A stretch of 64,000 nucleotides of DNA from Salipiger pallidus. GTDB lineage: Bacteria > Pseudomonadota > Alphaproteobacteria > Rhodobacterales > Rhodobacteraceae. A program made the position numbers and the translations under genes. Positions 6,096 through 37,748 of the stretch are shown here, in pieces (within the stretch, counting starts at the first letter, position 1; every line of letters starts with the position of its first letter). The notes under the pieces are model-generated. The model saw only the letters and a program-made list of their open reading frames with translations, made no database searches and had not been told where the DNA came from. Location: contig NZ_BMJV01000012.1 of the NCBI RefSeq assembly GCF_014643635.1, positions 1-64,000 of the forward strand. Direction: 5' to 3'.

Positions 6096-6797
6096 CTAGC
6101 CTACGGCGACCCCGAACAGCGCACCGACCCCGGCTGTCGCCGCCATTGCAAGCGCTCCCCATAGCGTGACCCGCGTGGCCCCACGGACGACGCCTGCGCC
6201 GCCGGCCGAAGCGCCCAATCCGCCAAGAACCGCAAGGCCAAGGATCGTCGATCCCGCCACCAGGGGAGCGATCTGCGCCTCCGAGACCAGCAGCACGACG
6301 ATCAGGGGCAGCACCGCCCCAACGGCGAAGGTCAGTGCGGACACCAGAGCCGCCTGGACAGGGCGGGCGGTAACGGTTTCCGAAATGCCGAGCTCGTCGC
6401 GCGCATGCGATCCGAGCGCGTCACGTTCAGTCAGTTGCACGGCAACCTTTTCCGCCAGGTCGCGGTCCAGCCCCCTTTCAACATAAATCCGGGTTAGTTC
6501 CTCGAGCTCGGCCTCGGGCGTTTCCTCGAGTTCACGGCTCTCTCGGGCGAGGTCCGCCTGTTCGGCGTCAGTTTGCGAGCTGACCGAGACATACTCCCCC
6601 GCCGCCATCGACATCGCGCCAGCCATAAGCCCGGCCAGCCCGGCGATCATGACCTCGGGCTTGCCGGACCCGGCTGCGGCGACGCCGACGACGAGGCTCG
6701 CGGTCGAGACAAGACCATCGTTGGCGCCGAGAACGGCGGCCCGCAGCCAGCCGATGCGATGCACCATATGGATTTCAGAATGTGATAGACGGCTCAT
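6096..6797 (-). CDS. VIT1/CCC1-family iron/manganese transporter
   Basis: A 233-residue membrane protein. Residues 14-70 hold the family signature (WLRAAVLGANDGLVSTASLVVGVAAA, then LMAGAMSMAAGEYVSVSSQTD), a hydrophilic cytosolic helix pair follows (about 75-135, Glu-rich, matching the metal-binding domain of plant VIT1), and three further membrane segments end the protein. Known VIT/CCC1 members move Fe2+ or Mn2+ out of the cytosol. Its ATG overlaps the stop of the upstream P-type ATPase (ATGA), so the two are translationally coupled and probably act on the same metal. Confidence 0.85.
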   Translation of the reverse strand: MSRLSHSEIHMVHRIGWLRAAVLGANDGLVSTASLVVGVAAAGSGKPEVMIAGLAGLMAGAMSMAAGEYVSVSSQTDAEQADLARESRELEETPEAELEELTRIYVERGLDRDLAEKVAVQLTERDALGSHARDELGISETVTARPVQAALVSALTFAVGAVLPLIVVLLVSEAQIAPLVAGSTILGLAVLGGLGASAGGAGVVRGATRVTLWGALAMAATAGVGALFGVAVG

Positions 6798-8710
6798 GGC
6801 GTGGCTCCTTGAACGATGTCAGCTTGCTCTGAAATGATCGCCTGGGGTTTGCCCGTAGCTGGCTCCTGTGGCGCGATGCGCAGCGCGCGCAGGGCGTTCA
6901 GGATCACGGCAACGTCGATCACTTCTTGCAGGAGCGCGCCCTGAACCGGCGTGAGGTAGCCGAAAGCGGCCGCGATCATGCCCATGACAGACAGGCCGAT
7001 CCCGGCGACAACGCTTTCGACCGCGATCCGGCGTGAAGCCCGCGCGATCTCGATGCCGGGCCCCAGCCGGTCGATCCGGTCGACGAGCAGCACCACGTCG
7101 GCGGCCTCGGCCGAGGCCGCGGCGCCCCGTGCCCCCATTGCCACGCCTACATCGGCTGCGGCCAGGGCGGGCGCGTCGTTGACACCATCACCCACCATCA
7201 TCACCGGCCCGTGTTTACGCTCAGAGAGCACCAGCAACACCTTTTGATCCGGCGTCAGACCGGCCCGCAGCCCGTCGAGGCCCAGCCCTTCCGTCACACG
7301 CTCGGCCACGTCCGCGCGGTCGCCGGTGGCCAGCAGGATACGCGAGATCCCTTGGCGGCGCAGACCGTCCAGCATGGCACCCGCTCCCTCGCGCAGCGGG
7401 TCGGACATGACGAGGTGCCCGGCCATGTGACCGTCAACTGCCACTGCGACAAGGACCGATCCGGCGCCCTTGGCGGGGTGATCGCCCACCATCCGCCCGA
7501 CCCGGGACGCCACGAAGCCGTCGCCCCCGACGATCACCTCGCGGTCCTCCACACGACCCAAGACCCCTTCGCCCGGGATCTCAGCCACTTCTGTCGGAAC
7601 GGGCAGTGTGAAGCCCTGTGCCTTGGCGGCGGTGACGATCGCTTGCGCGACAGGGTGCTTGGAGGCCTGATCGAGCGCGGCCGCGAGGCGCAGGATGTCG
7701 TCCTCGTTCATGCCATCGTGGCTGTCGATCGAGATGATCTGCGGACGGCCATCTGTCAGCGTCCCCGTCTTGTCGAGGATCAGCGTACGGATGCGCGCCA
7801 TTGTCTCGAGCGGCCCTGCGCCCTTGATCAAAACGCCAAAATGCGCCGCACGCGAGAGACCCGCGACCAGCGCAACCGGCACGGCAAGGATCAGCGGACA
7901 GGGCGTGGCGACCACCAGCACGGCGACCGCGCGGATCGGATCGCCTGTGAACCACCAGGCCGCGAAGGCGATACTGACGGTGACGACCAGAAAGCCCAGC
8001 GACCAGCGGTCGGCCAGCCGGGACATCGGCGCTTTGGACGCCTGCGCTTCCTCGACCAGGCGAACGATCCCGGCATAGGTGCTGTCCTTGGCCTCGCGCG
8101 TCGCCGTCAGGTCGAAGGCCTCGCCCGCGTTGGTCGATCCGCTCATGGCGTCGGCCCCGCGCGCCAGCCGGACTGGGAGGGATTCGCCGGTCAGCGCCGC
8201 GGTGTCGAGGAAGGCGGTGTCGGACGTAACCGAACCGTCCACGGGAACGACATCGCCCTGCCGGATCAGCAGGCGATCGCCCGGTGCGATCTCCTCGAGA
8301 GGCACATCCTCAAGACCGCCGTTCCGGTGCCGCGTCGCGGTCCGGGGTACGCGAGATAGAAGATCCTTCATCGAACGACGTGCACGGCCCTCAGCGAAGG
8401 CTTCGAGGAAAGTGCCTCCAGAATACATGACTGCGACGACAGCCGCAGCCAAGGTCTCGCCGAAGACAAGCGCCGCCGACATCGACAGCGCGGCAACGAT
8501 ATCGAGGCCCACCTCGCCGCGCCCAATGCTGCGGACGATTTCGACCACAAGCGCTGCCAGCGCGGGAACAACTCCTGCAATCCAGATCAGGTTCGCAACC
8601 TCTGGTTGGCCCGCAAGGTAGAATGCGAGTCCCACGATCAGCCCGGTTGCGGCCATCAGCAGGAGTGCGGTCTTGAAGCGATCGGTACGGGTCTGTTCCA
8701 TGCGGCTCAT
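6794..8710 (-). CDS. Heavy-metal P-type ATPase, P1B-5-like
   Basis: A 638-residue P1B ATPase with no N-terminal metal-binding domain. Visible motifs: TGES in the actuator domain, the membrane metal site ATPCPLILA, the phosphorylation motif DKTGTLTDG, an HPVAQAI nucleotide-binding motif, [10 protein letters not shown], and in the last membrane helix LLQEVIDVAVILNALRAL. The pair TPCP plus QE-x-x-D is the signature I know from P1B-5 ATPases such as rhizobial Nia, linked to Ni2+/Fe2+ export; Cu pumps have CPC and Zn pumps lack the QE-x-x-D. No hemerythrin tail is present. It overlaps both neighbours (ATGA junctions with apbE and the VIT gene), so it belongs to the flavin cluster operon. The substrate is inferred. 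Confidence 0.85.
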   Translation of the reverse strand: MSRMEQTRTDRFKTALLLMAATGLIVGLAFYLAGQPEVANLIWIAGVVPALAALVVEIVRSIGRGEVGLDIVAALSMSAALVFGETLAAAVVAVMYSGGTFLEAFAEGRARRSMKDLLSRVPRTATRHRNGGLEDVPLEEIAPGDRLLIRQGDVVPVDGSVTSDTAFLDTAALTGESLPVRLARGADAMSGSTNAGEAFDLTATREAKDSTYAGIVRLVEEAQASKAPMSRLADRWSLGFLVVTVSIAFAAWWFTGDPIRAVAVLVVATPCPLILAVPVALVAGLSRAAHFGVLIKGAGPLETMARIRTLILDKTGTLTDGRPQIISIDSHDGMNEDDILRLAAALDQASKHPVAQAIVTAAKAQGFTLPVPTEVAEIPGEGVLGRVEDREVIVGGDGFVASRVGRMVGDHPAKGAGSVLVAVAVDGHMAGHLVMSDPLREGAGAMLDGLRRQGISRILLATGDRADVAERVTEGLGLDGLRAGLTPDQKVLLVLSERKHGPVMMVGDGVNDAPALAAADVGVAMGARGAAASAEAADVVLLVDRIDRLGPGIEIARASRRIAVESVVAGIGLSVMGMIAAAFGYLTPVQGALLQEVIDVAVILNALRALRIAPQEPATGKPQAIISEQADIVQGATP

Positions 8711-9687
8711 CTTCCCCCGGCTGAGGCGATTGCCGCTGGTTCTTCGGAAAAAAGACGCCCGACTCCCACGCCCATTGCATTCCCTTCATCATCGCGCAGA
8801 AGAAACAGGGCGTCGAGTCCACGTTGTCTTGCGAGGTCCGCACCCCTCTCCGCACCGAGCACCATCAGCGCCGTCGCCCAGGCGTCGGCCTCGGCACAGG
8901 TGCGGGCCACGACGGTGACGGAGGCCGGCGAGGCGATCAGCGGCGCGCCACGTCTCGGATCCATGGTATGCGACAGGCGGCGCCCATGCACCTCGACCCA
9001 ATGGCGGTAGTCACCGGAGGTCGCGACGGCGGCGTCCTGCAGCGCCAGAACCGAATGCGGCGTCCGGCGATCAGGGTCCGGCGCTTCTACCGCGATGATC
9101 CATGCCTCGCCATCGGGGCGCAGGCCCATGGCACGCATCTCACCGTCGATGCCGACAAGGGCGTCGGCAATCCCATGATCGCGCAAGGTCTCGGCGAGCC
9201 GGTCGACACCGTGGCCCTTGGCGATGCCGTTCAGGTCCAGCGCGACGGGCGCGGTCTTGCGCAACTGCATCCCCTCGATCTCCAGCACCTCCTGAGCCGG
9301 GCGGCGGGGGGCGTCCATCGCGGCGCGGATACCCTCGGGCGCGGCGGCCCCGGGCCCGAAACCCCAGGCCGTCACCGCATCGCCCATGCCGATATCGAAG
9401 GCCCCGCCCGAGGCACGCCCGATCTCGAGCCCGAGGCGCAGGACCGCCCGCAGTTGCTCCGGCACCACCACCCAATCGCCCACCGGCGCCGCATTGATCC
9501 GCATGAGCGCGCTCTCCGCGTTCCACATCGACATCTGCGTGTCCACCTCGTCGACAGCCGCCTGAAGGGCGGCACGAATTGCATCCGTGTCGCGGACCCG
9601 ATCCGCGAAGAACAGCGCCGACCAGCGCGTGCCCATGGCGGGGCCGTTCAGGGCGATGCGCGCGCGCTCAGTAGACATCTTCGACAT
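8707..9687 (-). CDS. apbE: ApbE, FAD:protein FMN transferase
   Basis: A 326-residue ApbE protein. It shows MGTRWSALFF at the N-terminus, DLNGIAKGHGVDRL (about 170-183), DYRHWVEVHGRRLSHTMDPRRGAPL (about 231-255) and the C-terminal CAEADAWATALMVLG helix. ApbE transfers FMN from FAD to a Thr or Ser of exported redox proteins in the periplasm. No clear signal peptide or lipobox is seen at this start; ATG 9678 is an alternative. It overlaps the reductase gene by 20 bp and the ATPase by 4 bp. The likely substrate is the neighbouring DUF2271 protein, which carries a flavinylation-type motif. Confidence 0.9.
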   Translation of the reverse strand: MSKMSTERARIALNGPAMGTRWSALFFADRVRDTDAIRAALQAAVDEVDTQMSMWNAESALMRINAAPVGDWVVVPEQLRAVLRLGLEIGRASGGAFDIGMGDAVTAWGFGPGAAAPEGIRAAMDAPRRPAQEVLEIEGMQLRKTAPVALDLNGIAKGHGVDRLAETLRDHGIADALVGIDGEMRAMGLRPDGEAWIIAVEAPDPDRRTPHSVLALQDAAVATSGDYRHWVEVHGRRLSHTMDPRRGAPLIASPASVTVVARTCAEADAWATALMVLGAERGADLARQRGLDALFLLRDDEGNAMGVGVGRLFSEEPAAIASAGGR

Positions 9688-11875
9688 ACCGCCCCTCTGC
9701 CTTTAGGACTGCGGGCGTAAGCCCGGCAGGTGCGAGTATCTCGGCCAACGCATCGCTCACGCCCGTGGCCATGTCGCGCCCGCCGCAGACCATCACACGC
9801 GCCCCGTCGCAGATAAGCCGGGCCACCTGCGCCGCGTCGGCGCGCAAGGCGTCCTGCACATAACTGCGCCGCGCGCCGCGCGAGACGGCGGTGACAAGCC
9901 GGGTCAACCGCCCCTCAGCCTGCCAGCCGGGCATCTCTTCGCCATAGAAGAAATCGCTGTCCGCATGCCGCATCCCGAAAAACAGGTGCACGGGCCTGTG
10001 CCGCGCATTGCCGCGGATGAAGCCCGCCAGCGGCCCGATGCCGGTGCCCGCCCCGATCAGGATCAGCGGGGTGCGACCGCGGTCGGCGTGAAAGCCGGGA
10101 TTGCGGCGCAGGAAGGCCGTGACCCTAGCGCCCGGCTCCAAGGCGGTCAGCTGGCCCGAGGCCAGCCCGCCCGGATGCTTGCGCACAACGATCTCCACGA
10201 AGCCGTCGCGGCGACCCGAGGCCAGCGAGTAGAGACGTGGCACGGCGCTGCCCTGCGGCAGGACACCGATCAGGTCGCCCGCCTGAAACCGTGCGAAACC
10301 CGCCCCGGTCAGCCGCTGCCACAGCGTCGCGCGCGGCAAGGCGAAGCGCAGGATCGCGGCCCCCGCCTGCATCTCGGCCCCGTAGTTGCGCCGCGAGACG
10401 AGGGTCAATGTTTCGGTGCGCGGCGAGACGGGCTGGTGAGAAAGCTCGAGAGAGATGCTAAGCGCCTCGCCAAGAGCGCGGCCCCAGCGCGCGAAATCCT
10501 GCGGGGACTGGCGGTCGATTGCGTCAAGCGGCAGAAGCTCCGGCCAGTCCTTCGCTTGCGCTGCTGCCGCAACGTCCTTGGCAAAGGCGCAATAGGCCGG
10601 AAAACTCCGATCTCCGAAACCAAGCACAGCCATGGGAATATCCGGCGCTCCGTCGAGGGCGTTCAACCGGTCGAGGAAGCCCTTCGCCGAGGCCGGCGCA
10701 GCCCCGTCGCCATAGGTCGCGGCGAGCACGATGATGCGCTCGGCTCGGGCGTAGCGCTCTGGCGCGAAGCCCGACATCGGGCCAACATGGACGCCCTGCC
10801 CCGCTGCCGTCAGCGAGGCATGCAGGGTCGCGGCGAAGCCCCAGGTGCTGCCACCCTCGCTGCCGACAAGAAGGATCGTCTCGGCACGGCCCGCGGGCTG
10901 GTTGCCGCGGATGCGCGGCCGCCCGCGCCGCCCGGCAAACCAGATCAGGACGCCGGTCACGCCCATCGCCGGCACTCCGAGCGCCATCATCCCGAGCACA
11001 AGGCCGAGCGTCGCGGCCCCCTGCCCCGTGTGCAGCATGTAAATGGTTTCCGAGACGCGCTCCCACCCGGTCAGGTCGGCCCATGCCACGAGCGCGCCGG
11101 TTCCCTGGTCAAGATAGCCGGTGCCCCGGTCGGTCTTCAGTGTGAACACGTCCGTCGCATCGCCGGGATAGGGAAAGCTCAGTTCGCGCAGCTCGGCGAC
11201 GGGCGTCTGCAGCAGCGTGGCCATCTGATCGAGAGCGAACCCAATCTCTCCGCTCACTTCGGTGGGATCAGTCGGCAGGACGCCACCGTCCGGCAAAAGA
11301 TCGAAGGTGGAGGCTGTCATCCAGAGGGCGGTGGTGGAGGACAGAACGAGGCCGATGACGGCGATCCGGGCGATCTCGACATGCAGCCTGCCCGCGAACG
11401 GACCGCGCAAGGACGCGAACCAGTGCCGCCATCCGCCCGCCCGTCGCGCGACCAGCATAGCACCCGAGAGCGAGAGGACCAGCATCGCCGCGGCCCCGGC
11501 GGCCATGGCGATGCGCCCGCCATCCCCGAGGAAGAGCGAGCGATGAAAGTTGGTGAGCCAGCGAAGGGCCTGGTTCGGGTCGGCCGAGGCAACGCCCGCG
11601 CCCGTCGCCGGGTCGATCACGGCAGCACCCGGCGCGCCCTGATCGAACCAATAGGCGGTGATCCGACCGGAGGGCGACCGCCGGATCTGCTCGACGCCCG
11701 GATAGACGGCCTGGATGCGGTCCGCGAGGGTGGCGACTGTCTGACCAGTCTCCACCTGCGGCGCGGTGATGCGCTCGACTGCCGGAAAGACCGAGAGCGC
11801 AGCGCCGCTCAGGCTCAGGATCGTGACGAGCGCGAGTGCCAGTAGACCCGGCCAGCGATGGAGTGTACGGATCAT
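9668..11875 (-). CDS. PepSY-TM / flavodoxin / FAD reductase fusion
   Basis: A 735-residue fusion. Residues 1-375 form a PepSY-associated membrane domain with an N-terminal anchor (GLLALALVTILSLSGAALSVF), a periplasmic PepSY part, and helices carrying likely haem-ligand histidines (WLTNFHRSLFLGD, YMLHTGQGA). Residues 380-520 are a flavodoxin domain (ILLVGSEGGSTWGFA, LAATYGDGAAPASAK). Residues 530-735 are a ferredoxin-NADP reductase-like module (RLYSLAS for FAD, GAGTGIGPLAGFI and VMVCGG for NAD(P)H, C-terminal RYVEDVY). It should carry electrons from cytoplasmic NADPH across the membrane. The ATG at 11875 is chosen because AGGGGCAGGG precedes it and the longer frame overlaps the DUF2271 gene. 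Confidence 0.85.
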   Translation of the reverse strand: MIRTLHRWPGLLALALVTILSLSGAALSVFPAVERITAPQVETGQTVATLADRIQAVYPGVEQIRRSPSGRITAYWFDQGAPGAAVIDPATGAGVASADPNQALRWLTNFHRSLFLGDGGRIAMAAGAAAMLVLSLSGAMLVARRAGGWRHWFASLRGPFAGRLHVEIARIAVIGLVLSSTTALWMTASTFDLLPDGGVLPTDPTEVSGEIGFALDQMATLLQTPVAELRELSFPYPGDATDVFTLKTDRGTGYLDQGTGALVAWADLTGWERVSETIYMLHTGQGAATLGLVLGMMALGVPAMGVTGVLIWFAGRRGRPRIRGNQPAGRAETILLVGSEGGSTWGFAATLHASLTAAGQGVHVGPMSGFAPERYARAERIIVLAATYGDGAAPASAKGFLDRLNALDGAPDIPMAVLGFGDRSFPAYCAFAKDVAAAAQAKDWPELLPLDAIDRQSPQDFARWGRALGEALSISLELSHQPVSPRTETLTLVSRRNYGAEMQAGAAILRFALPRATLWQRLTGAGFARFQAGDLIGVLPQGSAVPRLYSLASGRRDGFVEIVVRKHPGGLASGQLTALEPGARVTAFLRRNPGFHADRGRTPLILIGAGTGIGPLAGFIRGNARHRPVHLFFGMRHADSDFFYGEEMPGWQAEGRLTRLVTAVSRGARRSYVQDALRADAAQVARLICDGARVMVCGGRDMATGVSDALAEILAPAGLTPAVLKAEGRYVEDVY

Positions 11876-11886
11876 GGCCCTGCCCC

Positions 11887-12357
11887 TCACATGTCGTAGG
11901 AGAAGTTGGCGATGTAGCGCCGGCCGGTCACCGGCGTACCCGCGCCCGCCGTCGTCAGCGGCACGGCCACCTCGTTCGGGCTGTCGCGCATATCCTCGAC
12001 CGCCGCGTCTATGTGAAGCGTGTAGCCCGCATCGAACAGCGCATCGGCCAGATCGAGCGTGATCTCGAGACTGCGGCCCGCGCCGACGCTGGCGCCGGTG
12101 ATACCGTTTACCTGCGCGGTATCGCCGCCCGTGGCACGGTACCAATCGCTCAGATGCTCGTAGTACTTGGACTTGCCACCAGCCATCCAGAGACTGCCGA
12201 CATAGGCGCCCGAGGCGTCGGTAACGTAAAGCGCGAGGTAAGCGCCGTCGCCGCCATAGTTGTTGAGGGTGGTTGTGAGCGTCACGGGCCGTGCCATAGC
12301 GAGGCCGGGAAGCGTGAGTGCGGTGGTCAGCGCGAGCGTTGCGAGAAGTGATTTCAT
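11887..12357 (-). CDS. Secreted DUF2271 protein with flavinylation motif
   Basis: A 156-residue protein with a Sec signal peptide (residues 1-22, LATLALTTALTLPGLAMA) and the DUF2271 pattern: TLTTTLNNYGGDGAYLALYVTD, VGSLWMAGGKSKYYEHLSDWYR, and a C-terminal RRYIANFSYDM. Residues 84-90 read NGITGAS, close to the ApbE target consensus D-G-x-(S/T)-G-A-(T/S), which makes Ser90 the likely FMN acceptor. It sits directly upstream of the reductase fusion (11 bp gap) and apbE. Expected role: periplasmic flavoprotein electron carrier. The family has no settled function known to me. Confidence 0.8.
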   Translation of the reverse strand: MKSLLATLALTTALTLPGLAMARPVTLTTTLNNYGGDGAYLALYVTDASGAYVGSLWMAGGKSKYYEHLSDWYRATGGDTAQVNGITGASVGAGRSLEITLDLADALFDAGYTLHIDAAVEDMRDSPNEVAVPLTTAGAGTPVTGRRYIANFSYDM

Positions 12358-12392
12358 GGGAATGATCCTTGTTCAGGGTGCTTCGGAGCTGT

Positions 12393-12773
12393 TCAGTTCA
12401 CCTGAACCTGCGGAGGGGCGCCGTTTCCGAAGAGGCCGTTCTGCGGAGGAGCGACCGTTCCAGCGGGCGCGGGATTGCGGGCGCCACCGCGGTCGTCGTC
12501 ATCATCCTCGTAGTCCATCTCGACGATCTGCAGCGTCGCCGGATCGAGCTTCACCTCGATCTCGCGGCCATCCTGGTCTCGGCCTTGGATTTCGTAGCAG
12601 CCGTCGTCGATCTCGAAGTCGCGCACCGTCCAACCGTTCTGTTCGGCCATCTGCATGGCGGCCTCGCGCGGCTGCCACTGGTCACGGGGCGCATTGCAAT
12701 CATCGTCGTCGGCCAGCGCAGCGCCGGCGGGCAAAAGTGCGATCAGGGCAAGGGCGGTCAGAGTCTTTTTCAT
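12393..12773 (-). CDS. Small periplasmic PepSY protein
   Basis: A 126-residue protein: signal peptide MKKTLTALALIALLPAGAALA, then DDDDCNAPRDQWQPREAAMQMAEQNGW, an acidic PepSY fold with CYEIQGRDQDGREIEVKLDPATLQIVE, and a Pro/Gly-rich tail. It is a paralogue of the protein at 14298 (same DWQPR, ENGWTVR and DDGCYEI words). The start at 12773 has a GAAAGGA ribosome site. The paired 17-bp operator lies about 45-95 bp upstream, so it is probably the first gene of a transcript with DUF2271, the reductase, apbE, the ATPase and VIT. Two conserved cysteines may form a disulfide. Confidence 0.8.
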   Translation of the reverse strand: MKKTLTALALIALLPAGAALADDDDCNAPRDQWQPREAAMQMAEQNGWTVRDFEIDDGCYEIQGRDQDGREIEVKLDPATLQIVEMDYEDDDDDRGGARNPAPAGTVAPPQNGLFGNGAPPQVQVN

Positions 12774-12818
12774 GGCAAGGGGTCCTTTCGTTTGATGAGA
12801 CCAATCTGGCACCCCGAC

Positions 12819-12868
12819 CTGAGGGCATCCTGACGCCCCAGCGATTCCTGCTTCAGCTTGCCGTCAGG
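12819..12868. promoter_or_regulatory. Paired 17-bp operator upstream of the second PepSY gene
   Basis: Two copies of one motif in opposite orientation: CTGAGGGCATCCTGACG on the plus strand (12819-12835) and CTGACGGCAAGCTGAAG on the minus strand (12852-12868). Each copy is a direct repeat of CTGA half-sites 11 bp apart, as expected for an OmpR-family dimer. The centres are 33 bp apart, exactly as in the pair at 14667-14716 next to the response-regulator gene. Confidence 0.65.
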
Positions 12869-12874
12869 AAAATG

Positions 12875-12898
12875 GCCCCGCCGATGAGGGCGGGGCCA
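12875..12898 (-). terminator. GC-rich hairpin terminator after the ferric reductase
   Basis: GGCCCCGCC (12875-12883) and GGCGGGGCC (12890-12898) form a perfect 9-bp stem with a 6-base loop. Read on the minus strand it is followed by ATTTTCC, and on the plus strand by seven A/T pairs. It lies 57 bp beyond the reductase stop at 12956 and just upstream of the operator of the next gene, so it probably splits the cluster into two transcripts. Confidence 0.7.
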
Positions 12899-12955
12899 AA
12901 AAAAGATGCGAGCGCAGGCTACAGGGCTGGCATGGCTATGCGCCCTGCCCCGCGT

Positions 12956-14305
12956 TCAGGTGAATTCGAACTGCTCGAAGCGGACACGGCGAGGCGTTTG
13001 GCCTTGTGCTTTCAAGCCCTTGAGAATCCCGTCCTTCAGACCGGTTGGGCCGCAGAACCACAAATCGGCTTGCCGGATCGCGAAAGGGACCGCGCCAATC
13101 AGGCGCTCGGCCGTGAGCCTGCCATCGCGCGTCGTAACGACCACCTCGAAACTGAACCTCGGGTTGCGGGCAGCCGCAGCGCGCAGCGTCTCTACCCCAA
13201 TCGCCTCCTCTTGTGTCCGAACGCAGTGGATGAGGTGAATGTCGCGGCTATCCGCTTCGCTCAGGCTTTCGGCCCAGGCGAGGAACGGCGTGATACCGAT
13301 GCCGCCCGCCAGCCATATCTGGCGCGCACCGCCCTTGCGGAAATTGAACCGTCCATATGGCCCTTCGACCTGCACGCGCGTTCCGGTCCGCAAGATGGCG
13401 GGCAGGCTTCGTGTCCAGCCACCCAAGCCCCGGATGGAGAACGTCAGGGTGCCGTCAGGGCGCGGGGCGCTGGCGATCGTGAAGGGGTGCGGCTCGGACA
13501 GTCCTGCCTCTGGCGCGCGGAAGAAGGCGAATTGCCCCGGCCGCCACCGCATGGCCCGCCCCTCGGGGCGGAGGGTTAGCGTGGTGGTGTCCTTGGTCTG
13601 GCTGATCTCTGTGACGGTGAATTCTCTACGCCGCAGGTACGGGGCGACCAGCTCGGTGAATATCCACGCGATTACTCCCGCGATGCCAAATGTGTTTAGA
13701 AGCACCGAGAGCGATGGATCTACCTCTGTCGGCAGGTCGACGAAGAACTGGTGAAAGACCACGATTGCAAAAAGGGCCCCCATGAAACGATGGCTGAACC
13801 GCCAGATCTGATAGGGGATTTCCAGTGGGGTGAAGGGCAATCTCCGGAACCAGCTGACAGCAACCAGGGCGAGAAGCGCGTTGAAGGCAAGTTCGCCCGC
13901 CTCTTCACCAAGTTCACCAAGGGAGGTTTCACGCACCAAACGCTCGAAATCCGGCTCGATCTGCTGGTGCAGGATCATCAGGACCATTGCGGAAATACCA
14001 AGCCACTTGTGGACCCGGTACATGCGATCGAGACCGCCGAACAACGGCTCCACCAGCGGCGGCCGTGCGGCGAGGATCAGGGTCTGTGCCATCGCGACAA
14101 CTGCCGCGGCCCCGACGGCGATGCCGAGCGCGGCATCCGCACCATAAGTCGCATAGGTGTTGAAACCGAGCAAAGCCGCCAGCAGGCATGGCAACGCAAC
14201 CAGCACCGGGCCCGTCAGGGCTAGAGGAGAGTTTAGGGAAAGCCGGGAGAGTGGCGGCAGGCTCGGCACCGGGACAATACCGTCGCGACGCGCTGCATCA
14301 GTCAT
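12956..14305 (-). CDS. Ferric-reductase-like flavohaem membrane protein
   Basis: A 449-residue protein. The N-terminal half has about six membrane helices with paired histidines typical of bis-haem ferric reductase domains (VHKWLGISAMVLMILHQQIEP and FSHRFMGALFAIVVFHQFF). The C-terminal half is an FAD/NAD(P)H module: FRAPEAGLSEPHPFTIASAP binds FAD, VQVEGPYGRF, AGGIGITPFLAW binds the dinucleotide, and LWFCGPTGLKDG is the terminal loop. It resembles the NOX/FRE superfamily, moving electrons outward from NAD(P)H. The start at 14305 overlaps the stop of the small PepSY gene (ATGACTGA), giving translational coupling; an upstream ATG at 14341 is less likely. Confidence 0.85.
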   Translation of the reverse strand: MTDAARRDGIVPVPSLPPLSRLSLNSPLALTGPVLVALPCLLAALLGFNTYATYGADAALGIAVGAAAVVAMAQTLILAARPPLVEPLFGGLDRMYRVHKWLGISAMVLMILHQQIEPDFERLVRETSLGELGEEAGELAFNALLALVAVSWFRRLPFTPLEIPYQIWRFSHRFMGALFAIVVFHQFFVDLPTEVDPSLSVLLNTFGIAGVIAWIFTELVAPYLRRREFTVTEISQTKDTTTLTLRPEGRAMRWRPGQFAFFRAPEAGLSEPHPFTIASAPRPDGTLTFSIRGLGGWTRSLPAILRTGTRVQVEGPYGRFNFRKGGARQIWLAGGIGITPFLAWAESLSEADSRDIHLIHCVRTQEEAIGVETLRAAAARNPRFSFEVVVTTRDGRLTAERLIGAVPFAIRQADLWFCGPTGLKDGILKGLKAQGQTPRRVRFEQFEFT

Positions 14306-14615
14306 CGTCGCGTCTCTCGTGATCCCGCTCGCGGCGATCATCCTCGTCGTCCTCGTATTCGAACTCGATTACCTCCAGCGTGGCCGGGTGGACAGTCACC
14401 TCGATCGCACGCCCCTCGGCATCCCTCCCGTCGATCTCGTAGCAGCCGTCATCGATCTTGATCCGGCGCACCGTCCAACCATTTTCCTCGGCCAGCATGG
14501 CAACAGCATCGCGCGGCTGCCAGTCGGCCATCGGCACGAAGCAATCGTCGTCAGCCAGCGCCGCGCCGGCCGTAAAGACCGCGAGAAAGCCGATAATTGT
14601 CAATGTCTTCTTCAT
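14298..14615 (-). CDS. Small periplasmic PepSY protein, first gene of cluster
   Basis: A 105-residue protein with a signal peptide (MKKTLTIIGFLAVFTAGAALA) and a single PepSY unit (DCFVPMADWQPRDAVAMLAEENGWTV, then DDGCYEIDGRDAEGRAIEV) ending in a charged tail (DDEDDRRERDHERRDDD). It is paralogous to the protein at 12393. A TAGGAG ribosome site precedes the ATG at 14615. It shares a divergent promoter region, with a paired operator, with the two-component system; small PepSY proteins next to such systems are often their regulated outputs or sensors. Confidence 0.8.
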   Translation of the reverse strand: MKKTLTIIGFLAVFTAGAALADDDCFVPMADWQPRDAVAMLAEENGWTVRRIKIDDGCYEIDGRDAEGRAIEVTVHPATLEVIEFEYEDDEDDRRERDHERRDDD

Positions 14616-14666
14616 GGGGCACACTCCTAGTGGCTCGCCTCTTGATGCCATTCATGCGCCGCGAAG

Positions 14667-14716
14667 CTGACGGCAGCCTGAAGGGGCTCGACCCACAAGC
14701 TTCAGCTTCGTGTCAG
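14667..14716. promoter_or_regulatory. Paired 17-bp operator in the divergent promoter
   Basis: CTGACGGCAGCCTGAAG on the plus strand (14667-14683) and CTGACACGAAGCTGAAG on the minus strand (14700-14716), centres 33 bp apart. It lies between the PepSY start (14615) and the response-regulator start (14761). With the pair at 12819-12868 it defines a likely binding site for the response regulator encoded at 14761. Confidence 0.7.
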
Positions 14717-14760
14717 CCAGACGGATCATGGAGGGACATCAGGAAAGGACGGGTACGACC

Positions 14761-15420
14761 ATGCGCATATTGCTGATCGAGGACGACACGACTCTTGGCG
14801 CTGCCGTGCGCGACCAGATCGCAGCTGATGGCCAGTCAGTAGACTGGGTCACGCGGCTAGACGCGGCGGCAGACGCGATGAGCGCAACCTCTTACGACCT
14901 GCTCCTGCTCGACCTCATGCTGCCAGACGGACGTGGTATCGGGTTCCTCAAGGGCCTCAGGACGCGTGGAGACGTGACGCCGGTCATCATCCTGACGGCG
15001 CTCGACCAGGTGTCCGATAGGATCGAAGGCCTCAATGCGGGCGCTGACGACTATCTTGTGAAGCCCTTCGACCTGTCGGAACTGTCGGCACGGATCGGAT
15101 CGGTCGCGCGGCGCTACAGCGGCAACCCCAACCCGATCCTGACCCACGGACCGCTCGACATCGACCTTGCCGCGCGCAGCGTCCATCGGGATGGCAGACA
15201 TGTGCCGCTGACGGCGCGGGAATGGGCGCTCTTCGAGGCCTTCCTGGCGCGTCCCGGGCAGCTCCTGTCCAAGGCGCAGTTGGAGGAGAAGCTCTACGCT
15301 TTCGACGCCGAAGTCGAGAGCAACACCATCGAGGTGCACGTGAGCCGCCTGCGCAAGAAACTGGGGAGCGCCATCATCGAGACCGAGCGCGGCATGGGTT
15401 ACCGGCTGGGCAAGCCATGA
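14761..15420 (+). CDS. OmpR/PhoB-family response regulator
   Basis: A 219-residue regulator. The receiver domain (residues 1-115) has the acidic pair IEDD, the phospho-acceptor Asp in LLLLDLMLPDGRG, Thr in ILTALD and Lys in LVKPFDLSE. A winged helix follows (residues 125-219: PLTAREWALFEAFLARPGQLLSKAQLEEKLY, SNTIEVHVSRLRKKLG, GYRLGKP). The pattern is close to QseB/PmrA-type regulators. The start at 14761 follows AGGAAAGGAC; the longer frame begins in the promoter region. It overlaps its kinase gene (CCATGATG junction) and probably binds the CTGA-type operators. Confidence 0.92.
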   Translation: MRILLIEDDTTLGAAVRDQIAADGQSVDWVTRLDAAADAMSATSYDLLLLDLMLPDGRGIGFLKGLRTRGDVTPVIILTALDQVSDRIEGLNAGADDYLVKPFDLSELSARIGSVARRYSGNPNPILTHGPLDIDLAARSVHRDGRHVPLTAREWALFEAFLARPGQLLSKAQLEEKLYAFDAEVESNTIEVHVSRLRKKLGSAIIETERGMGYRLGKP

Positions 15421-16784
15421 TGTGGCCATCCAGCCTTCAGGTACGGCTCGGCTTGTCACTCGGCCTTGTGCTGACGATCCTCTGGCTCGCCGCCGCCACG
15501 GTTACCGCGGTGATCGTTCGGGGCGAGATGGACGAGGTCTTCGACAGCGCCCTGCGCGAAACCGCCGAGCGCATCCTTCCGCTGGCCGTGACCGACATCG
15601 TCGGCCGAGAAGATCAGGGTGTGACGCAGCGCCTCGCGCCGATCCGGGAGCATGACGAGTTCTTCACCTACATCGTACGCGATGCCGAGGGACGCATTTT
15701 GCTGCAATCCCATGCGGCGGACCCTGCCGTGTTCCCTCCATACGACGGGCCGGGATTTGGGCAGAACGCCACACATCGCCTCTACAGCGACGCGGCGCTC
15801 CAGGGGACGATCAGCATCACCGTGGCCGAACCGTTGGCGCATCGCGCATCGGTTGCTCTTGAAATCCAGATGGGCCTCGGCCTGCCGCTGCTGGTCGTGC
15901 TGCCGTTGGCGCTCGCGTCGATTATTCTCGCTGTGCGCTTTAGCCTCGCCCCTCTCCATCGGTTCCGTACGCGGCTTGAAGCGCGCGGCGTGCGCGACCT
16001 GTCAGAAGTACCCGCGGCCGACCTGCCGACCGAAATCGGACCGCTGGCCGCAACCTTGAACAGCCTTTTGGCTCGGTTGCGCGACGCGTTCGAGGCTGAG
16101 CGAAGTTTTGCAGCCAATGCGGCTCATGAACTAAGGACACCATTGGCGGGCGCTATCGCCCAGGCGCAGCGACTGCGGTCAGAGACCAAAGATCCGACCA
16201 TCGACGCCCGTGCCGCCGAGATCGAGGCAACGCTCAAGCGTCTCACTCGGCTTTCCGAGCGTCTCCTGCAGCTTGCGCGGGCGGAAGGCGGTAGACTTCG
16301 GATGGACCAGAGCGCTGATGTCAGAACCATCACTCGGGTCGTGGTGGAAGATATCGCGCGCACCACAGAGAACGGGCGCCTTACGTTGAACTTGCCGGAC
16401 ACGCCTGTCTTGTCTGATATCGACCCCGACGCATTAGGAATTCTGTGCCGGAATCTGGTGGAAAACGCCCTACGCCACGGGGCGCAGAATGCCCCAGTCG
16501 CGGTTACACTCACGAGCGAGGGGCAGTTGATCGTGGCGAACGAGGGCCCCGCGGTAGCAACCGAAACACTCGAACGCCTGACAGGGCGCTTCGAGAGGGC
16601 AGATGCAAAAACTGATGGTAGCGGGCTTGGCCTCGCTATCGTCTCAGCCATCGCAGAACGGATCGAAACCTCTCTCTTGCTCCAGTCACCACGTCCCGGT
16701 GAAACTTCTGGATTTCAGGCATCCGTCAGATTGCCAACGGATGCTCCAAATGCCCATGTGAAAGATCGGGAGCATTGGCCTTGA
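15417..16784 (+). CDS. Sensor histidine kinase (QseC/PmrB type)
   Basis: A 455-residue kinase with two membrane helices (residues 11-34, and about 145-170: LGLPLLVVLPLALASIILAV) bounding a periplasmic domain of about 110 residues (DEVFDSALRETAERILPL ... THRLYSDAALQGTISITVAEP). The H-box is FAANAAHELRTPLAG, the N-box NLVENALRHGA, and the ATP lid GSGLGLAIV. The start overlaps the regulator's TGA. Its location suggests it senses metal or redox state in the periplasm, but no ligand residues can be picked out. Confidence 0.92.
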   Translation: MMWPSSLQVRLGLSLGLVLTILWLAAATVTAVIVRGEMDEVFDSALRETAERILPLAVTDIVGREDQGVTQRLAPIREHDEFFTYIVRDAEGRILLQSHAADPAVFPPYDGPGFGQNATHRLYSDAALQGTISITVAEPLAHRASVALEIQMGLGLPLLVVLPLALASIILAVRFSLAPLHRFRTRLEARGVRDLSEVPAADLPTEIGPLAATLNSLLARLRDAFEAERSFAANAAHELRTPLAGAIAQAQRLRSETKDPTIDARAAEIEATLKRLTRLSERLLQLARAEGGRLRMDQSADVRTITRVVVEDIARTTENGRLTLNLPDTPVLSDIDPDALGILCRNLVENALRHGAQNAPVAVTLTSEGQLIVANEGPAVATETLERLTGRFERADAKTDGSGLGLAIVSAIAERIETSLLLQSPRPGETSGFQASVRLPTDAPNAHVKDREHWP

Positions 16785-18859: not shown

Positions 18860-18875
18860 CTTAACAGCTGTTAAG
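18860..18875. repeat. Putative parS palindrome 2, overlapping the repC stop
   Basis: CTTAACAGCTGTTAAG, identical to the core of the copy at 18813-18830 and 45 bp from it (centre to centre 46). It overlaps the repC termination codon (18871-18873). A half-site TTAACAGCTG also occurs inside repB near 20730. Confidence 0.65.
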
Positions 18876-20094
18876 CCGCACTTCGCCGACCGATCAAAGC
18901 CATGACCATCGGACCGCAAGAGAATTCGCCCGCCGCGGCCTTGGACGTCAGCGCCCGCAAGTATCCACCCGGTGATCTGATGTCAGAGAATCGTTCCAGC
19001 ATGGCCACGACGACGATCGAGGCTTGCTCTGGTCCCATGCAGCGTTGCGCTTCTTCCCACGCGGAAACACTGATCCCCATGGCCGGCCTTACATGACAAG
19101 CCGCGTCGAAAAGTTGGTGCCAGTGTCGAATGTCGCCCTGATAGAAAGTCTTGAGCGAGGGACAGCCGGCGATTACCAGGTGGAGTGGGATTTTCGGCAC
19201 CCGCCTCGTGTCAGACTCTTCAAGGTCAGCCACGGGCTCACCCGTATCATCATCAGGCGCGCGTCCCGCCGCCCCGCCTTTTTCTAAGGCAGGTTCAAGA
19301 TCTATAGATTCTTTATTTGAATTATGATGGTGACGCTCACATTGGGCATCATTGGTGTTCATTTCTTCTGTTTCAGGACCGTCAATCACATTACGCGCCT
19401 GGTCAAGAAGGGTCTCCAGTTCAGTCCGAAATGCCGACAGATCCTCAAGCGAGAGTTTGCGGCGAAGAGCGCGGGCGGTGAGGGCTGCCTTGTCGCGGAG
19501 CTGGTCCCATAGGCCAAGCCCGGGCTGGATCTCCTCGCCGAACTCCGCCAGAGCGGCCAAGTCGCGACGCATAAGGCTCACTACCTCCCTCAGTCGCCGC
19601 ACACGGTCCTCGGCCTCACGCACAGCCTCTGCAGCCCGTGCAATTTCCTCGGCCCGGCAATAGAGCGGGGAGAGATCAAAGCCGAAGGCCACCCGATCTT
19701 CGCCACGCTTGCGCACATACCGCTTCCCATTGGGGCTATCGCGCCGCATGAGCAAGCGTGCCTCTACCAACCGGGCGAGGTGACGGCGCATCGTCGAGCA
19801 AGGCATGCCGTTCAGCCGCTCGCAGATCGCCTTGTTGGATGGGAAGACGACCATTTCGGTGTTCCCGCCAAGCGCATCGTCCGGAAAAAAGCTGAGAAGT
19901 CCCTGAAGAACGGTCAGATCGCGCTCGGAAACCCCGAAGGCGGCCTGTGCCTTGGACAGCTCACGGAGGAGCTCCCACTTGTTGACGGGCTTGCCGGGAA
20001 CAGACGCCTCAGGACGCTCGACCACGCGCAGATGGGCGTGCGAGATCGGCCGCATAAACGGCGAAATCGGTGTGTAATCCATGATGTCATTCAC
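18871..20094 (-). CDS. repC: Replication initiator RepC
   Basis: A 407-residue RepC. Residues 40-130 show the initiator's DNA-binding half (KWELLRELSKAQAAFGVSERDLTVLQGLLSFFP, MVVFPSNKAICERLNGMPCSTMRRHLARLVEARLLMRRDSPNGKRY), and residues 290-400 the second conserved half (GCPSLKTFYQGDIRHWHQLFDAA, GPEQASIVVVAML, SPGGYLRALTSKAAAGEFS). RepC starts leading-strand synthesis from an origin within its own gene in repABC plasmids. It is preceded by the antisense-RNA leader and followed by the parS palindromes. MDYTPIS at 20082 is an alternative start. Confidence 0.92.
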   Translation of the reverse strand: MNDIMDYTPISPFMRPISHAHLRVVERPEASVPGKPVNKWELLRELSKAQAAFGVSERDLTVLQGLLSFFPDDALGGNTEMVVFPSNKAICERLNGMPCSTMRRHLARLVEARLLMRRDSPNGKRYVRKRGEDRVAFGFDLSPLYCRAEEIARAAEAVREAEDRVRRLREVVSLMRRDLAALAEFGEEIQPGLGLWDQLRDKAALTARALRRKLSLEDLSAFRTELETLLDQARNVIDGPETEEMNTNDAQCERHHHNSNKESIDLEPALEKGGAAGRAPDDDTGEPVADLEESDTRRVPKIPLHLVIAGCPSLKTFYQGDIRHWHQLFDAACHVRPAMGISVSAWEEAQRCMGPEQASIVVVAMLERFSDIRSPGGYLRALTSKAAAGEFSCGPMVMALIGRRSAA

Positions 20095-20167
20095 GAAGGC
20101 AAAATTTCCCTGGCCCGCGAATCGCTTTGCGCTTGCGGGAAAGGGGCCAGATCGCTACATTCAGAGG

Positions 20168-20256
20168 TGCGAAAACTGAAGTTTTGTAGCGGGCTGGTCC
20201 CGTGCGAAACCTAAGAAAGGTCTCGTGAAGCTTGCTTCTCGGGGCCTTTTTCTTTT
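20168..20256 (+). ncRNA. repABC counter-transcribed RNA (incompatibility RNA)
   Basis: It lies in the 201-bp gap between repB and repC and runs antisense to the repC leader. Candidate promoter: TTGCGG (20133-20138), 17-bp spacer, TACATT (20156-20161). The RNA would contain the short hairpin AAAAC-TGAA-GTTTT and end in a strong terminator stem (20217-20230 with 20235-20248) followed by TTTTTCTTTT-type bases. Such RNAs repress repC translation and set copy number and incompatibility. The ends are estimated from the signals only. Confidence 0.7.
20217..20256 (+). terminator. Terminator of the antisense RNA
   Basis: A 14-bp stem, AAGGTCTCGTGAAG with CTTCTCGGGGCCTT (three positions non-Watson-Crick, two of them G-U), a 4-base loop, then a T-rich run. 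Confidence 0.7.
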
Positions 20257-20295
20257 CTGCCTGTCTCGTGCCTCCTTTTTGATTGTTGCTCTTCC

Positions 20296-21228
20296 TCAGT
20301 CTTCCGAACGCTTCCAGCGCTCGTGAAGCTCGGTGATCAGCTGCGGGGCGTTGCCCTCAAGCCAGCTGACAAAATCGCTCTCCTCGGCCTTCAACTCGAG
20401 CTTGAGTTGCTTTCCACGACGTCCGATCGTGACAGTGGCGGCACCGACCCCCGGAATCACCGTGCCGGGCCGCCCGCGAGGGCGAGACGAGGATGTGGTC
20501 TGTTCGGGCTTCCCTGCAGCAGAGAGGACGGCCAAAAATGCATGATCGGATTTCTCGTCAATACCGCCTTGGTAGGATGTCTTGGCCTCACCCGCCAAAG
20601 CTGCAAGCAGTTCGCGATCGGCATCCGTAGCCCCCAGCAACTTCTTGAGCTCTTCCCACCTGGGCCGACCAATGCCCGGAGCGGCACCGATGGCGAGGAC
20701 CAAGTCCTCCCCAACGGTGCGGACCACGCTTAACAGCTGCGACACTCCTGCCTCGGTCAGATTGAGAACCTCGGCGACACCCTTGTTAGTGCGTTCGGAT
20801 GCGCTCAGATGGTCACCGTCGAGCAAGGCTGCGGCAACAAGCGCTCGTTCGATGAAGCTTAGATCCCGCCGCTCCTGGTTCTCTAACAGCTGATCACGAA
20901 GTGCCTGATCGCCCTCCATCTCTGTGACAATGGCGCGGACCTTGATCCCAAGTTCTCTGCAAGCTTCCAGTCGACGACGGCCATAGATCAGGCTGTAGCG
21001 ATCACCATCAAGCGGCCGGACGAGGATTGGTACTCGCTGTCCGTTCTTGGAAATTGACGCCTTGAGGCCCGCAGTCTCAATCTGCAGCCTGTCATCGAGC
21101 CGACCTGTGGTTTCGATTTGGTCAGGCTCGATTTCGAAAACGCCGCCGCGCAGCCTGCGCCCTTCAAGAGCGTCGGGCGCGTTGCGCAGGGTCTGCAGTG
21201 GCAGTCCCAGTTTAGGCTTTCTTGCCAT
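20296..21228 (-). CDS. repB: Partition protein RepB (ParB family)
   Basis: A 310-residue RepB: FEIEPDQIETTGRLDDRL near the start, NGQRVPILVRPL, the GRRRLEACRELG box (about residues 78-89), LLENQERRDLSFIERALVAAALL, and a helix-turn-helix in EVLNLTEAGVSQLLSVVR. It binds parS and, with RepA, segregates the plasmid and represses the operon. It overlaps the end of repA by 17 bp. Confidence 0.92.
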   Translation of the reverse strand: MARKPKLGLPLQTLRNAPDALEGRRLRGGVFEIEPDQIETTGRLDDRLQIETAGLKASISKNGQRVPILVRPLDGDRYSLIYGRRRLEACRELGIKVRAIVTEMEGDQALRDQLLENQERRDLSFIERALVAAALLDGDHLSASERTNKGVAEVLNLTEAGVSQLLSVVRTVGEDLVLAIGAAPGIGRPRWEELKKLLGATDADRELLAALAGEAKTSYQGGIDEKSDHAFLAVLSAAGKPEQTTSSSRPRGRPGTVIPGVGAATVTIGRRGKQLKLELKAEESDFVSWLEGNAPQLITELHERWKRSED

Positions 21229-22405
21229 TGCGTCCCCACGTGTTCTGGATGATCGCCGCGATCTCGTCGTTGACGGCGTTCATGGATTCGATTGCACGAT
21301 CGAAAGTCTGACGCGTGAAGTCCTTCTTGTCGGCCTCGTAGAGCGTCTGCTTCGTCAGCCCTGCATCAGAGATCGCAGTAGACTCAACCATGTGGTTGGT
21401 CAGGACTGACCTGCCGAACAGACCCCGGATGAAAGCAATGACCTCGGTCTGCGGGGCATCACCCACCTTGTAGCGGGTCGGCAGAAAGCGCAGCCAGTCG
21501 AAGCGAAGGTTTGCGCCAGCATCCCGGATGACGCCAAGCAGATCAGCGGTCATGCGCAAAAACTGCGACATGGACATCAGATCGAGCATTTGGGGGTGAA
21601 CGGTAACAAGCACCCCTGAAGATGCTGAAAGGGCGGACATGGTTAAAAAACCAAGCTGCGGCGGACAGTCGATGACGACGACGTCATAGTCCGCTTCGAC
21701 ACTGTCGAGCGCGTCGCGCACACGGGCAAAGAATGCGCGGGCGCCGCCACGCTGAATGGCTGCCGGTGTCTCATGTTCGAATTCCATGAGCTCGAGGTTC
21801 CCGGGAATCAGGTCAAGACCACGGATGTAGGTCTTGCGGATCACGTCCGAGATCGGGACCGGTTCATCGTAGCGAACCGCATCATACAGCGTGCCACCCT
21901 CCATCAGGTCCAGCTCAGGCTGGATGCCATGCAGCGCGGAAAGGGATGCCTGGGGGTCCAGATCGATCGCAAGGACACGATATCCCTTGAGAGCCAAGCG
22001 CTGTGCAAGGTGAGCGGATGTTGTCGTTTTCCCGGACCCGCCTTTGAAGTTCACAACAGAAACAATCTGAAGCTCGTCACCGGCACGACGCCCCGGAACG
22101 TAGGTTCCAGGCTTCTTCGCGTTTGCCTCAAGAGCGTGGCGAATCTCCCAGATATCATCGAGGGTATATCGCCGGTGGCTGCCCGCAGTGGTTTCGACGT
22201 CAGCGATCTTTCCTTCTCGATGAAGCTTGCGAAGGTAGGTATGATCGACGCCAAGCAACTCGGCCGCCTCGCCGCTGGTCAGGCTGCGCATGACTTTTTT
22301 GGCGTCGGGAGGGAAGTGGGCAGCACGTTGCGCATGAAGATTGGACGCAAGAAGCTCTGCGTAGTGCCCGATGGCAATGTCCAGGTCCTGCTCAGCTTCG
22401 CTCAT
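21212..22405 (-). CDS. repA: Partition ATPase RepA (ParA family)
   Basis: A 397-residue RepA. The N-terminal 100 residues hold a MerR-like helix-turn-helix (SGEAAELLGVDHTYLRKLHREGKI ... HRRYTLDDI). The deviant Walker A box is KGGSGKTT at residues 121-128, with DLDPQASL (about 147-154) and VVIDCPPQLGFLTMSAL following. Length and layout match repABC RepA proteins. It is the first gene of the operon, with a 13-bp direct repeat just upstream of its start. Confidence 0.93.
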   Translation of the reverse strand: MSEAEQDLDIAIGHYAELLASNLHAQRAAHFPPDAKKVMRSLTSGEAAELLGVDHTYLRKLHREGKIADVETTAGSHRRYTLDDIWEIRHALEANAKKPGTYVPGRRAGDELQIVSVVNFKGGSGKTTTSAHLAQRLALKGYRVLAIDLDPQASLSALHGIQPELDLMEGGTLYDAVRYDEPVPISDVIRKTYIRGLDLIPGNLELMEFEHETPAAIQRGGARAFFARVRDALDSVEADYDVVVIDCPPQLGFLTMSALSASSGVLVTVHPQMLDLMSMSQFLRMTADLLGVIRDAGANLRFDWLRFLPTRYKVGDAPQTEVIAFIRGLFGRSVLTNHMVESTAISDAGLTKQTLYEADKKDFTRQTFDRAIESMNAVNDEIAAIIQNTWGRNGKKA

Positions 22406-29741: not shown

Positions 29742-29742
29742 A

Positions 29743-37278: not shown

Positions 37279-37748
37279 GACAGTTGATTTTCGCGTTTTG
37301 CATCGGGCTCCTTCCCTTTGCCGCCAATGCGGTGGAACCGGACGAAATGCTGACCGACCCGGTATTGGAACAGCGTGCGCGGGAGATTTCCAAGGATCTA
37401 CGATGCGTCGTCTGTCAGAACCAGGACATCGACAGTTCGAACGCGGGTGTGGCGCGGGACTTGCGTCTGCTCGTACGCGAGCGCCTGGTCGTTGGAGACA
37501 GCGACGCGGAGGTGATCGAATACATACGGGCGCGGTACGGGGATTACGTGCTGCTGAAACCGCCTCTGGAGCCTGCGACCTACGCGCTTTGGTTCGCTCC
37601 GATCGCTTTCGTTCTGATCGGGGTTTTCGTTGGTGGCGGGCTACTGATGAGTCGGCGAAAGCAAGAGGCATTTGAAGACTTGGGCTCGGAGGATGAGAAC
37701 ACCGTGTCCGAAATTCTCAGGCAAAACGAAGCGGGGGATGCGTCATGA
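37275..37748 (+). CDS. ccmH: Cytochrome c maturation protein CcmH
   Basis: A 157-residue protein with a signal peptide, the haem-ligation thiol motif LRCVVCQNQDIDSSNAGVARDLR, and GDSDAEVIEYIRARYGDYVLLKPPLEPATYALWF before a C-terminal membrane helix. The CxxC pair handles apocytochrome thiols. It overlaps ccmG and ccmI by ATGA junctions. Confidence 0.94.
   Translation: MRQLIFAFCIGLLPFAANAVEPDEMLTDPVLEQRAREISKDLRCVVCQNQDIDSSNAGVARDLRLLVRERLVVGDSDAEVIEYIRARYGDYVLLKPPLEPATYALWFAPIAFVLIGVFVGGGLLMSRRKQEAFEDLGSEDENTVSEILRQNEAGDAS

Follow-up and report, generated by a model that had tools for sequence, protein, structure and literature searches.

A plasmid-borne, two-component-linked PepSY/DUF2271 flavinylation cluster in Salipiger pallidus as a possible periplasmic reductase under metal stress

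The 64,000-nucleotide stretch of Salipiger pallidus DNA analysed here (the window) carries a ten-gene cluster in which a two-component system adjoins genes for a PepSY_TM/diflavin-reductase fusion, a DUF2271 protein, the flavin transferase ApbE and two metal transporters. The initial annotation knew of no characterised pathway of this kind; the core is, however, not new, since PepSY/DUF2271 flavinylation clusters were described by Méheust et al. (2021; PMC8238504), who also showed flavinylation of a DUF2271 protein. A literature search, with supplementary files outside its scope, found no paper naming the present cluster. Open reading frames and Pfam profiles confirmed the gene content and order first proposed, with all ten genes where the initial annotation had placed them. 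The features are as follows (E, expectation value):

6096-6797, minus strand: VIT family transporter (PF01988); Pfam E 4.9e-66; VIT1 chain 6iu3 matched, residues 17-225, E 2.5e-18
6794-8710, minus strand: P1B-type metal ATPase; NCBIfam TIGR01525 and TIGR01512 above cut-off; TPCP before the phosphorylation site, QExxD near the C-terminus
8707-9687, minus strand: ApbE flavin transferase without recognisable signal peptide; Pfam E 6.3e-77; 14 residues before GPAMGT
9668-11875, minus strand: fusion of PepSY_TM, flavodoxin and reduced nicotinamide adenine dinucleotide phosphate (NADPH) reductase, 735 residues; Pfam, PepSY_TM E 4.5e-31; CysJ 6efv E 3.3e-26
11887-12357, minus strand: DUF2271 protein with Sec-like leader and putative acceptor motif NGITGAS; Pfam E 7.6e-35
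12393-12773, minus strand: small PepSY_2 protein B (PepSY-B) with leader-like start, two cysteines and an acidic stretch; Pfam E 1.3e-32
12852-12868, plus strand: candidate response-regulator box upstream of PepSY-B, TTCAGCTTGCCGTCAGG; pattern search
12956-14341, minus strand: ferric-reductase/NOX-like flavocytochrome (Ferric_reduct/FAD_binding_8/NAD_binding); Pfam E 3.3e-14; PDB 8qt6 E 7.4e-41, residues 76-460
14298-14615, minus strand: small PepSY_2 protein A (PepSY-A) with leader-like start, two cysteines and an acidic tail; Pfam E 4.6e-27
14666-14682, minus strand: candidate response-regulator box, TTCAGGCTGCCGTCAGC; pattern search
14701-14717, plus strand: candidate response-regulator box, TTCAGCTTCGTGTCAGC; pattern search
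14761-15420, plus strand: response regulator; Pfam; nearest NCBIfam models PmrA and QseB, both below their cut-offs
15417-16784, plus strand: histidine kinase; Pfam; nearest models QseC and PmrB, NCBIfam QseC below cut-off

Eight genes run on the minus strand from 14615 down to 6096 in the order PepSY-A, NOX-like, PepSY-B, DUF2271, fusion, ApbE, P-type ATPase and VIT, and the response regulator and histidine kinase are divergent from them. The description of this operon as mostly overlapping start-to-stop holds for four of its seven junctions (PepSY-A/reductase by 8-44 nucleotides depending on the start codon, fusion/ApbE by 20, ApbE/ATPase and ATPase/VIT by 4 each) and fails for the other three, which have gaps of 182 (reductase to PepSY-B), 35 and 11 nucleotides. 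The longest of these, before PepSY-B, contains its own candidate regulator box.

The proposal that these genes form one unit recurring across genomes is upheld by their co-occurrence elsewhere. Among 390 genomes of the order 73 contain DUF2271, as do 70 among 398 genomes of the phylum. The surroundings of 79 DUF2271 places in the order were taken, of which 77 matched the window DUF2271 by tblastn (the other two were dropped) and 59 are covered over the full span; 21 loci from the phylum list and 12 plasmid loci were added. A further set of named genome loci comprises the best 80 of 506 relatives and is biased toward close relatives; it shares genomes with the order set, so that the two cannot be treated as independent, and both include near-identical loci. 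Across the 77 order loci, their 59 full-span members and the 80 named loci, respectively, we found the fusion in 77, 59 and 80, ApbE in 73, 58 and 76, the regulator in 70, 53 and 78, the kinase in 68, 52 and 76, and PepSY_2 in 69, 52 and 80. Other members are more sporadic: P1B in 26, 19 and 44, VIT in 22, 17 and 47 (both counted downstream in the two order sets), and the NOX-like gene in 16, 12 and 30. The gene set is far beyond chance, because it recurs in further genera, families and classes: core genes are present outside the order in Cupriavidus metallidurans CH34, on plasmids of Rhizobium, Shinella and Cupriavidus pinatubonensis, and on a Methylocella plasmid with the two-component pair inverted. 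When open frames from 95 DUF2271 loci were clustered, the families present in at least 8 loci were only those of the cluster itself, cytochrome b561, four clusters (10-11 loci) including RepC- and ParB-like ones, and an ABC-transporter ATPase (12 loci).

The setting points to mobility. The window is part of a plasmid, with repC, repB and repA at 18871-22405, and the cluster is flanked by ParB- and ArdC-type genes. In a plasmid collection 121 records match the 11.5 kilobases around the cluster and 47 carry 80% or more of it at a single location; among those listed, the best (Paracoccus, Salipiger and Pseudosulfitobacter, many records of the last being near-identical isolates) reach 98.7-98.9% identity over the whole length. 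On two plasmids typed as conjugative, from Paracoccus aerodenitrificans (98.9% identity) and from Celeribacter ethanolicus (83.6%), the cluster likewise adjoins repABC. A phage origin was considered and rejected, as none of 61 pattern matches in viral contigs encodes a relative.

The cytosolic half of the fusion protein is CysJ/P450-reductase-like by sequence and by model, and contains the flavodoxin and the flavin adenine dinucleotide (FAD)/NADPH domains of a diflavin reductase of the CPR/CysJ kind, with a FAD_binding_6 match just under cut-off. The structure model has a predicted local distance difference test score (pLDDT) of 73.8 and a predicted template modelling score of 0.49, and the 50 matches listed by Foldseek include P450 reductases and CysJ. 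FoxB is absent from these 50, so that the PepSY_TM half rests on the Pfam match and on the histidines, four of which (H6, H111, H165 and H282) are invariant across 81 sequences. In this respect the initially proposed NADPH diflavin-reductase/PepSY_TM fusion is borne out. These histidines are in keeping with the FoxB, FsrB and CrpH metal reductases (PMC13038864), which share the PepSY_TM core and whose own conserved histidines are believed to bind two haems; what differs here is the fusion of PepSY_TM to a P450-reductase/CysJ-like diflavin module and the linked DUF2271 partner.

The NOX-like protein shares with the NOX/FRE flavocytochromes the match to 8qt6 (which we take to be SpNOX) and both histidine pairs, and is set apart from them by its place inside a flavinylation operon; it may form superoxide or reduce a metal. 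In NOX/FRE flavocytochromes the two bis-histidine pairs are spaced by 13 and 12 residues; this spacing is present (H111/H125 and H184/H197, invariant in 10 sequences, as are H285 of HPFT and C430 of CGP), together with the FAD and NADPH domains. The slot after PepSY-A holds a NOX-like gene in 20 of 91 rows and a cytochrome b561 in 30 (the PF01292 match being confirmed in two representatives), and in none of the 91 both together. Among the 42 loci with neither, 25 offer less than 1.2 kilobases and lack any membrane frame, 14 are without an upstream regulator, two hold a frame with at least three membrane segments and one is roomy without such a frame. That two unrelated transmembrane cytochromes swap in one slot suggests that they do the same job, namely a second electron entry. 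The minimum numbers of changes on the fusion-protein tree are 9 for the NOX-like gene, 20 for the cytochrome, 18 for P1B and 17 for VIT. Raw full-span counts had hinted at an association of the NOX-like gene with the ATPase (a downstream P1B in 12 of 12 loci with it and 7 of 47 without it); we dropped this link after an independent-pairs test on the same tree (6 supported-branch pairs, mean 1.2 same versus 1.1 opposite, median p 1).

The predicted recipient of these electrons is the DUF2271 protein. Its [ST]GAS motif, the sole [ST]GA[ST] found among the operon products, is kept in all 95 homologues examined (near-identical loci included), with a final serine throughout and, in 54, N replacing D three places before the T/S. 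Another DUF2271 protein has been shown to be flavinylated by ApbE at a [S/T]GA[S/T] motif (PMC8238504). Leaders were scored by hydrophobicity only, both here and for ApbE; a Sec-like leader is seen in 88 of the same 95 homologues, and a twin-arginine motif in none of the 95. Leader and motif together agree with the exported DUF2271 protein first postulated. The structure model of this protein has a mean pLDDT of 59.5, and was thus too weak for a fold search. Tandem complete DUF2271 copies occur in one cluster (L143, G219:C56), and two partial stretches, perhaps a broken gene, in another (L152, G214:C33).

By the same measure, a leader-like hydrophobic core was seen in none of 163 cluster ApbE sequences (87 and 76 from two overlapping sets), and in 149 of these there is room for fewer than 20 residues ahead of the mature start. 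The window ApbE likewise has neither the signal peptide nor the lipobox of an extracytosolic ApbE on the hydrophobicity test. The genome's single other ApbE match has a twin-arginine-like leader and lies about 3 kilobases from an FMN_bind gene. In tblastn, nine DUF2271 loci outside the clade (L166-L174, 156-184 bits) had nothing matching the regulator, and only two had kinase matches, which were weak; three of the seven among them with an ApbE match (L167, L169 and L173) also look leaderless and the other four are ambiguous.

Since the cluster ApbE has no recognisable signal peptide, its ordinary action in the periplasm, where it had been expected, does not follow. The combination of a leaderless ApbE with a Sec-leader DUF2271 suggests, rather, cytosolic flavin attachment: ApbE may put flavin mononucleotide (FMN) on the DUF2271 precursor in the compartment in which FAD is synthesised, with Sec export to the periplasm following. 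We offer this tentatively, as a proposal that could well prove wrong. If true, neither FAD export nor a periplasmic ApbE would be needed, and the leaderless state of all cluster ApbE examined, set against the leader on their only visible substrate, would be explained. The remaining readings are that the flavin is attached to DUF2271 by the genome's other ApbE, or that the cluster ApbE has a cytosolic substrate not yet seen. A comparable enzyme is the cytosolic ApbE of Klebsiella, also without a signal peptide, which acts on a soluble fumarate reductase (PMC12052999); its substrate, however, is cytosolic, whereas in the present cluster a Sec-like leader is found on the one product that bears the motif.

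Conserved repeats accompany the divergent regulator. A TCAG-N7-TCAG repeat, with an 11-bp period, lies between the regulator and PepSY-A in 72 of 75 sequences versus 0.26 after mononucleotide shuffling; six other spacers occur in 0-6 of the 75. This sample consists of the window plus 74 loci whose regulator could be recognised, ten near-identical loci having been removed. Upstream of PepSY-B the repeat is present in 44 of 55 sequences, window included, versus 0.47 shuffled and 1-6 for other spacers, with 20 of the 75 excluded because that stretch overlaps the other intergenic region. Of the 78 named loci that have a regulator, 77 show the repeat too. Direct repeats of such layout are typical for OmpR-family regulators. 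These are candidate boxes, presumably bound by the cluster's own response regulator, and the operon seems to be controlled by its dedicated divergent two-component system. A stricter form of the box has 8 sites in the whole genome, 3 of them within the cluster, and a reversed control pattern has 4; the five other sites are about at control level and we therefore claim no wider regulon.

The two transporters belong, as initially held, to families with known exporters, namely iron-exporting P-type ATPases and VIT-domain MbfA exporters (PMC7762939). The PF01988 match of VIT extends over profile positions 1-213 of 214. The window ATPase carries the TPCP form of the TPC membrane motif of P1B-5, a class that we take this motif to define and from which the label P1B-5-like derives. 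P-type ATPases of this class are exporters. Across 38 tabulated ATPase frames, the window's included, the motif is TPCP in 26, SPCA in 6 and CPCA in 3, with none found in 3. ATPases near the cluster that depart from the TPCP type are often of the SPCA type (L037, L040, L083, L084, L115 and L118), presumably the P1B-4 exporter class. A Sinorhizobium meliloti sequence considered as a candidate for the P1B-5 enzyme Nia carries a CPC motif and was set aside. VIT was found within the fetched stretch of 27 of 77 order loci versus a chance estimate of about 1% (0-5 VIT matches per genome). On the fusion-protein tree P1B and VIT vary the same way in 4.2 pairs and oppositely in 0.0 (median p 0.125), a trend only toward the two going together.

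Further along the same plasmid lies a metal/redox island (28755-61428) encoding a CDF exporter (28755-29849), CcmF (34703-36703), a CcmH-like TPR protein (37745-38896), a DsbD-like protein (38925-41054), a cytochrome c (43809-44726), two multicopper oxidases (44770-46164 and 53173-54477), a ScsC/DsbA-like protein (46645-47376), two further P-type ATPases (47751-50282 and 59023-61428) and a DUF305 protein (51492-52328). It is largely of copper type, with general metal resistance and Ccm/Dsb genes in addition. Two further plasmids show other company. On an IncHI1B/IncP plasmid of Klebsiella oxytoca (L035, 7964-15481) a two-component/reductase/PepSY_2/DUF2271/fusion/VIT set without a local ApbE lies near phosphonate/phosphite-use genes, and on a Janthinobacterium plasmid (L042, 6346-9818) the set stands beside CzcA-type efflux and phosphonate/phosphite genes, its fusion being annotated as a short PepSY_TM gene only.

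We propose, at a probability of roughly 0.42, that the cluster belongs to the PepSY/DUF2271 flavinylation systems as a mobile variant under two-component control and serves as a periplasmic reductase under metal stress, with optional exporters for Fe(II)- or Mn(II)-type ions. An envelope signal, most likely a metal ion, would activate the kinase, and the regulator would bind the observed 11-bp-period repeats and turn the operon on at two places. Electrons from NADPH would then pass to the two flavins of the fusion protein (FAD and FMN), traverse the membrane by way of two haems, each presumably held by a pair of the conserved histidines, and reach an FMN on the [ST]GAS motif of DUF2271, whose attachment is predicted from the other DUF2271 protein and would probably take place in the cytosol prior to export, ApbE being leaderless. 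The NOX-like protein, or cytochrome b561 elsewhere, would supply the second entry for electrons. Where present, the ATPase and VIT would export Fe(II), Mn(II) or a similar ion, and the reductase would hold that metal in a reduced, soluble form in the periplasm, allowing it to exit the cell. This reading is favoured because the loci have no conserved TonB or DUF4198 neighbours and seem to be under dedicated two-component control, because both transporter families include known iron exporters, because VIT is found in 27 of the 77 order loci and because further metal genes lie on the plasmid. Within it, the electron path is better supported than the metal-specific export step.

Several observations weigh against this interpretation. 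A downstream P1B is absent from 40 and a downstream VIT from 42 of the 59 full-span order loci (26 and 24, respectively, of 60 named loci), so that the exporters do not define the core, as the first description of the set had implied; the P-type ATPase and VIT are accessory parts of the module. Because many loci hold the core but no exporters, the substrate may be broader. An association of the NOX-like gene with P1B disappears once the fusion-protein tree is considered. The neighbouring plasmid island is mostly of copper type and the stricter box was not found outside the cluster on the window, and therefore a different metal may be involved and the cluster need not respond to the signal that the island does. 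Lastly, the published view of PepSY-like clusters is one of iron reduction and assimilation (PMC8238504), and Caulobacter mutants in a canonical cluster lose fitness in ethylenediaminetetraacetic acid (PMC12004947).

Close behind the metal-stress reading comes periplasmic redox repair, which taken alone we still regard as rather unlikely: under stress from metals or oxidants, the line would pass its electrons to oxidised proteins, thiols, peroxide or oxyanions (chromate, for example), and the transporters would be hitch-hiking metal genes. The many loci that hold the core without exporters are as this would have it, the window plasmid encodes Ccm proteins as well as thiol redox proteins like DsbD and ScsC, and MsrQ, a membrane relative of the ferric-reductase type, feeds a periplasmic methionine sulfoxide reductase (PMC8238504). 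Against it, the families beside at least 8 of the 95 DUF2271 loci include no candidate repair enzyme by position and rank, the rarer clusters being left unannotated.

Less likely again is an assimilatory iron reductase, in which flavinylated DUF2271 would reduce periplasmic Fe(III) and VIT or another transporter would import Fe(II). This is what Méheust et al. (PMC8238504) proposed for PepSY-like clusters, and Vibrio cholerae VciB and Caulobacter CCNA_03155-03159 (PMC12004947) lend it further weight. However, Pfam finds no TonB receptor or DUF4198 among the ten products, and no such family is conserved beside the 95 DUF2271 loci by frame clustering, single loci not having been scanned with those models; the present cluster has a dedicated two-component system with conserved boxes versus the Fur control reported for canonical clusters; and its VIT shares one operon with a P-type ATPase of an exporting class. 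A redox-sensing device, in which the kinase takes its input from the electron line and from the PepSY_2 proteins, whose two cysteines are well conserved, and bulk metal reduction is secondary, would account for the tight linkage of PepSY_2, kinase and regulator to the reductase core, but a 735-residue NADPH reductase is a costly sensor and we consider this very improbable.

The PepSY-like clusters of Méheust et al. (PMC8238504) have a PepSY_TM protein, which in some carries a NAD-binding domain, together with DUF2271 and ApbE; some also contain VIT1 (167 clusters) or PF01794 genes (108). The cluster reported here resembles them in its PF03929 gene within an ApbE/DUF2271 cluster, its [S/T]GA[S/T] motif and at least one signal peptide, that of DUF2271. 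Set against passages of that paper's main text, and with the proviso that like loci may be listed in its supplementary files, it differs in its divergent two-component system with boxes, the flavodoxin in the fusion, the leaderless ApbE, the lack of DUF4198 or a TonB receptor in the operon and the P-type ATPase (the word "ATPase" is not in that main text). The ferrosome proteins FezB and FezC (PMC11334425) likewise pair a putative ferrous transporter with a membrane cytochrome; this is a likeness of idea only, with no hint of an organelle here.

Relative to the known kind, the most interesting departures are the dedicated, box-carrying two-component switch and the leaderless ApbE. The former would place covalent-flavin electron transfer under a two-component switch, on plasmids that pass from genus to genus, and the latter makes it testable whether an envelope protein is flavinylated before or after export. 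The conserved boxes may furthermore provide a ready reporter for the signal, and hence for the substrate, of a widespread reductase family.

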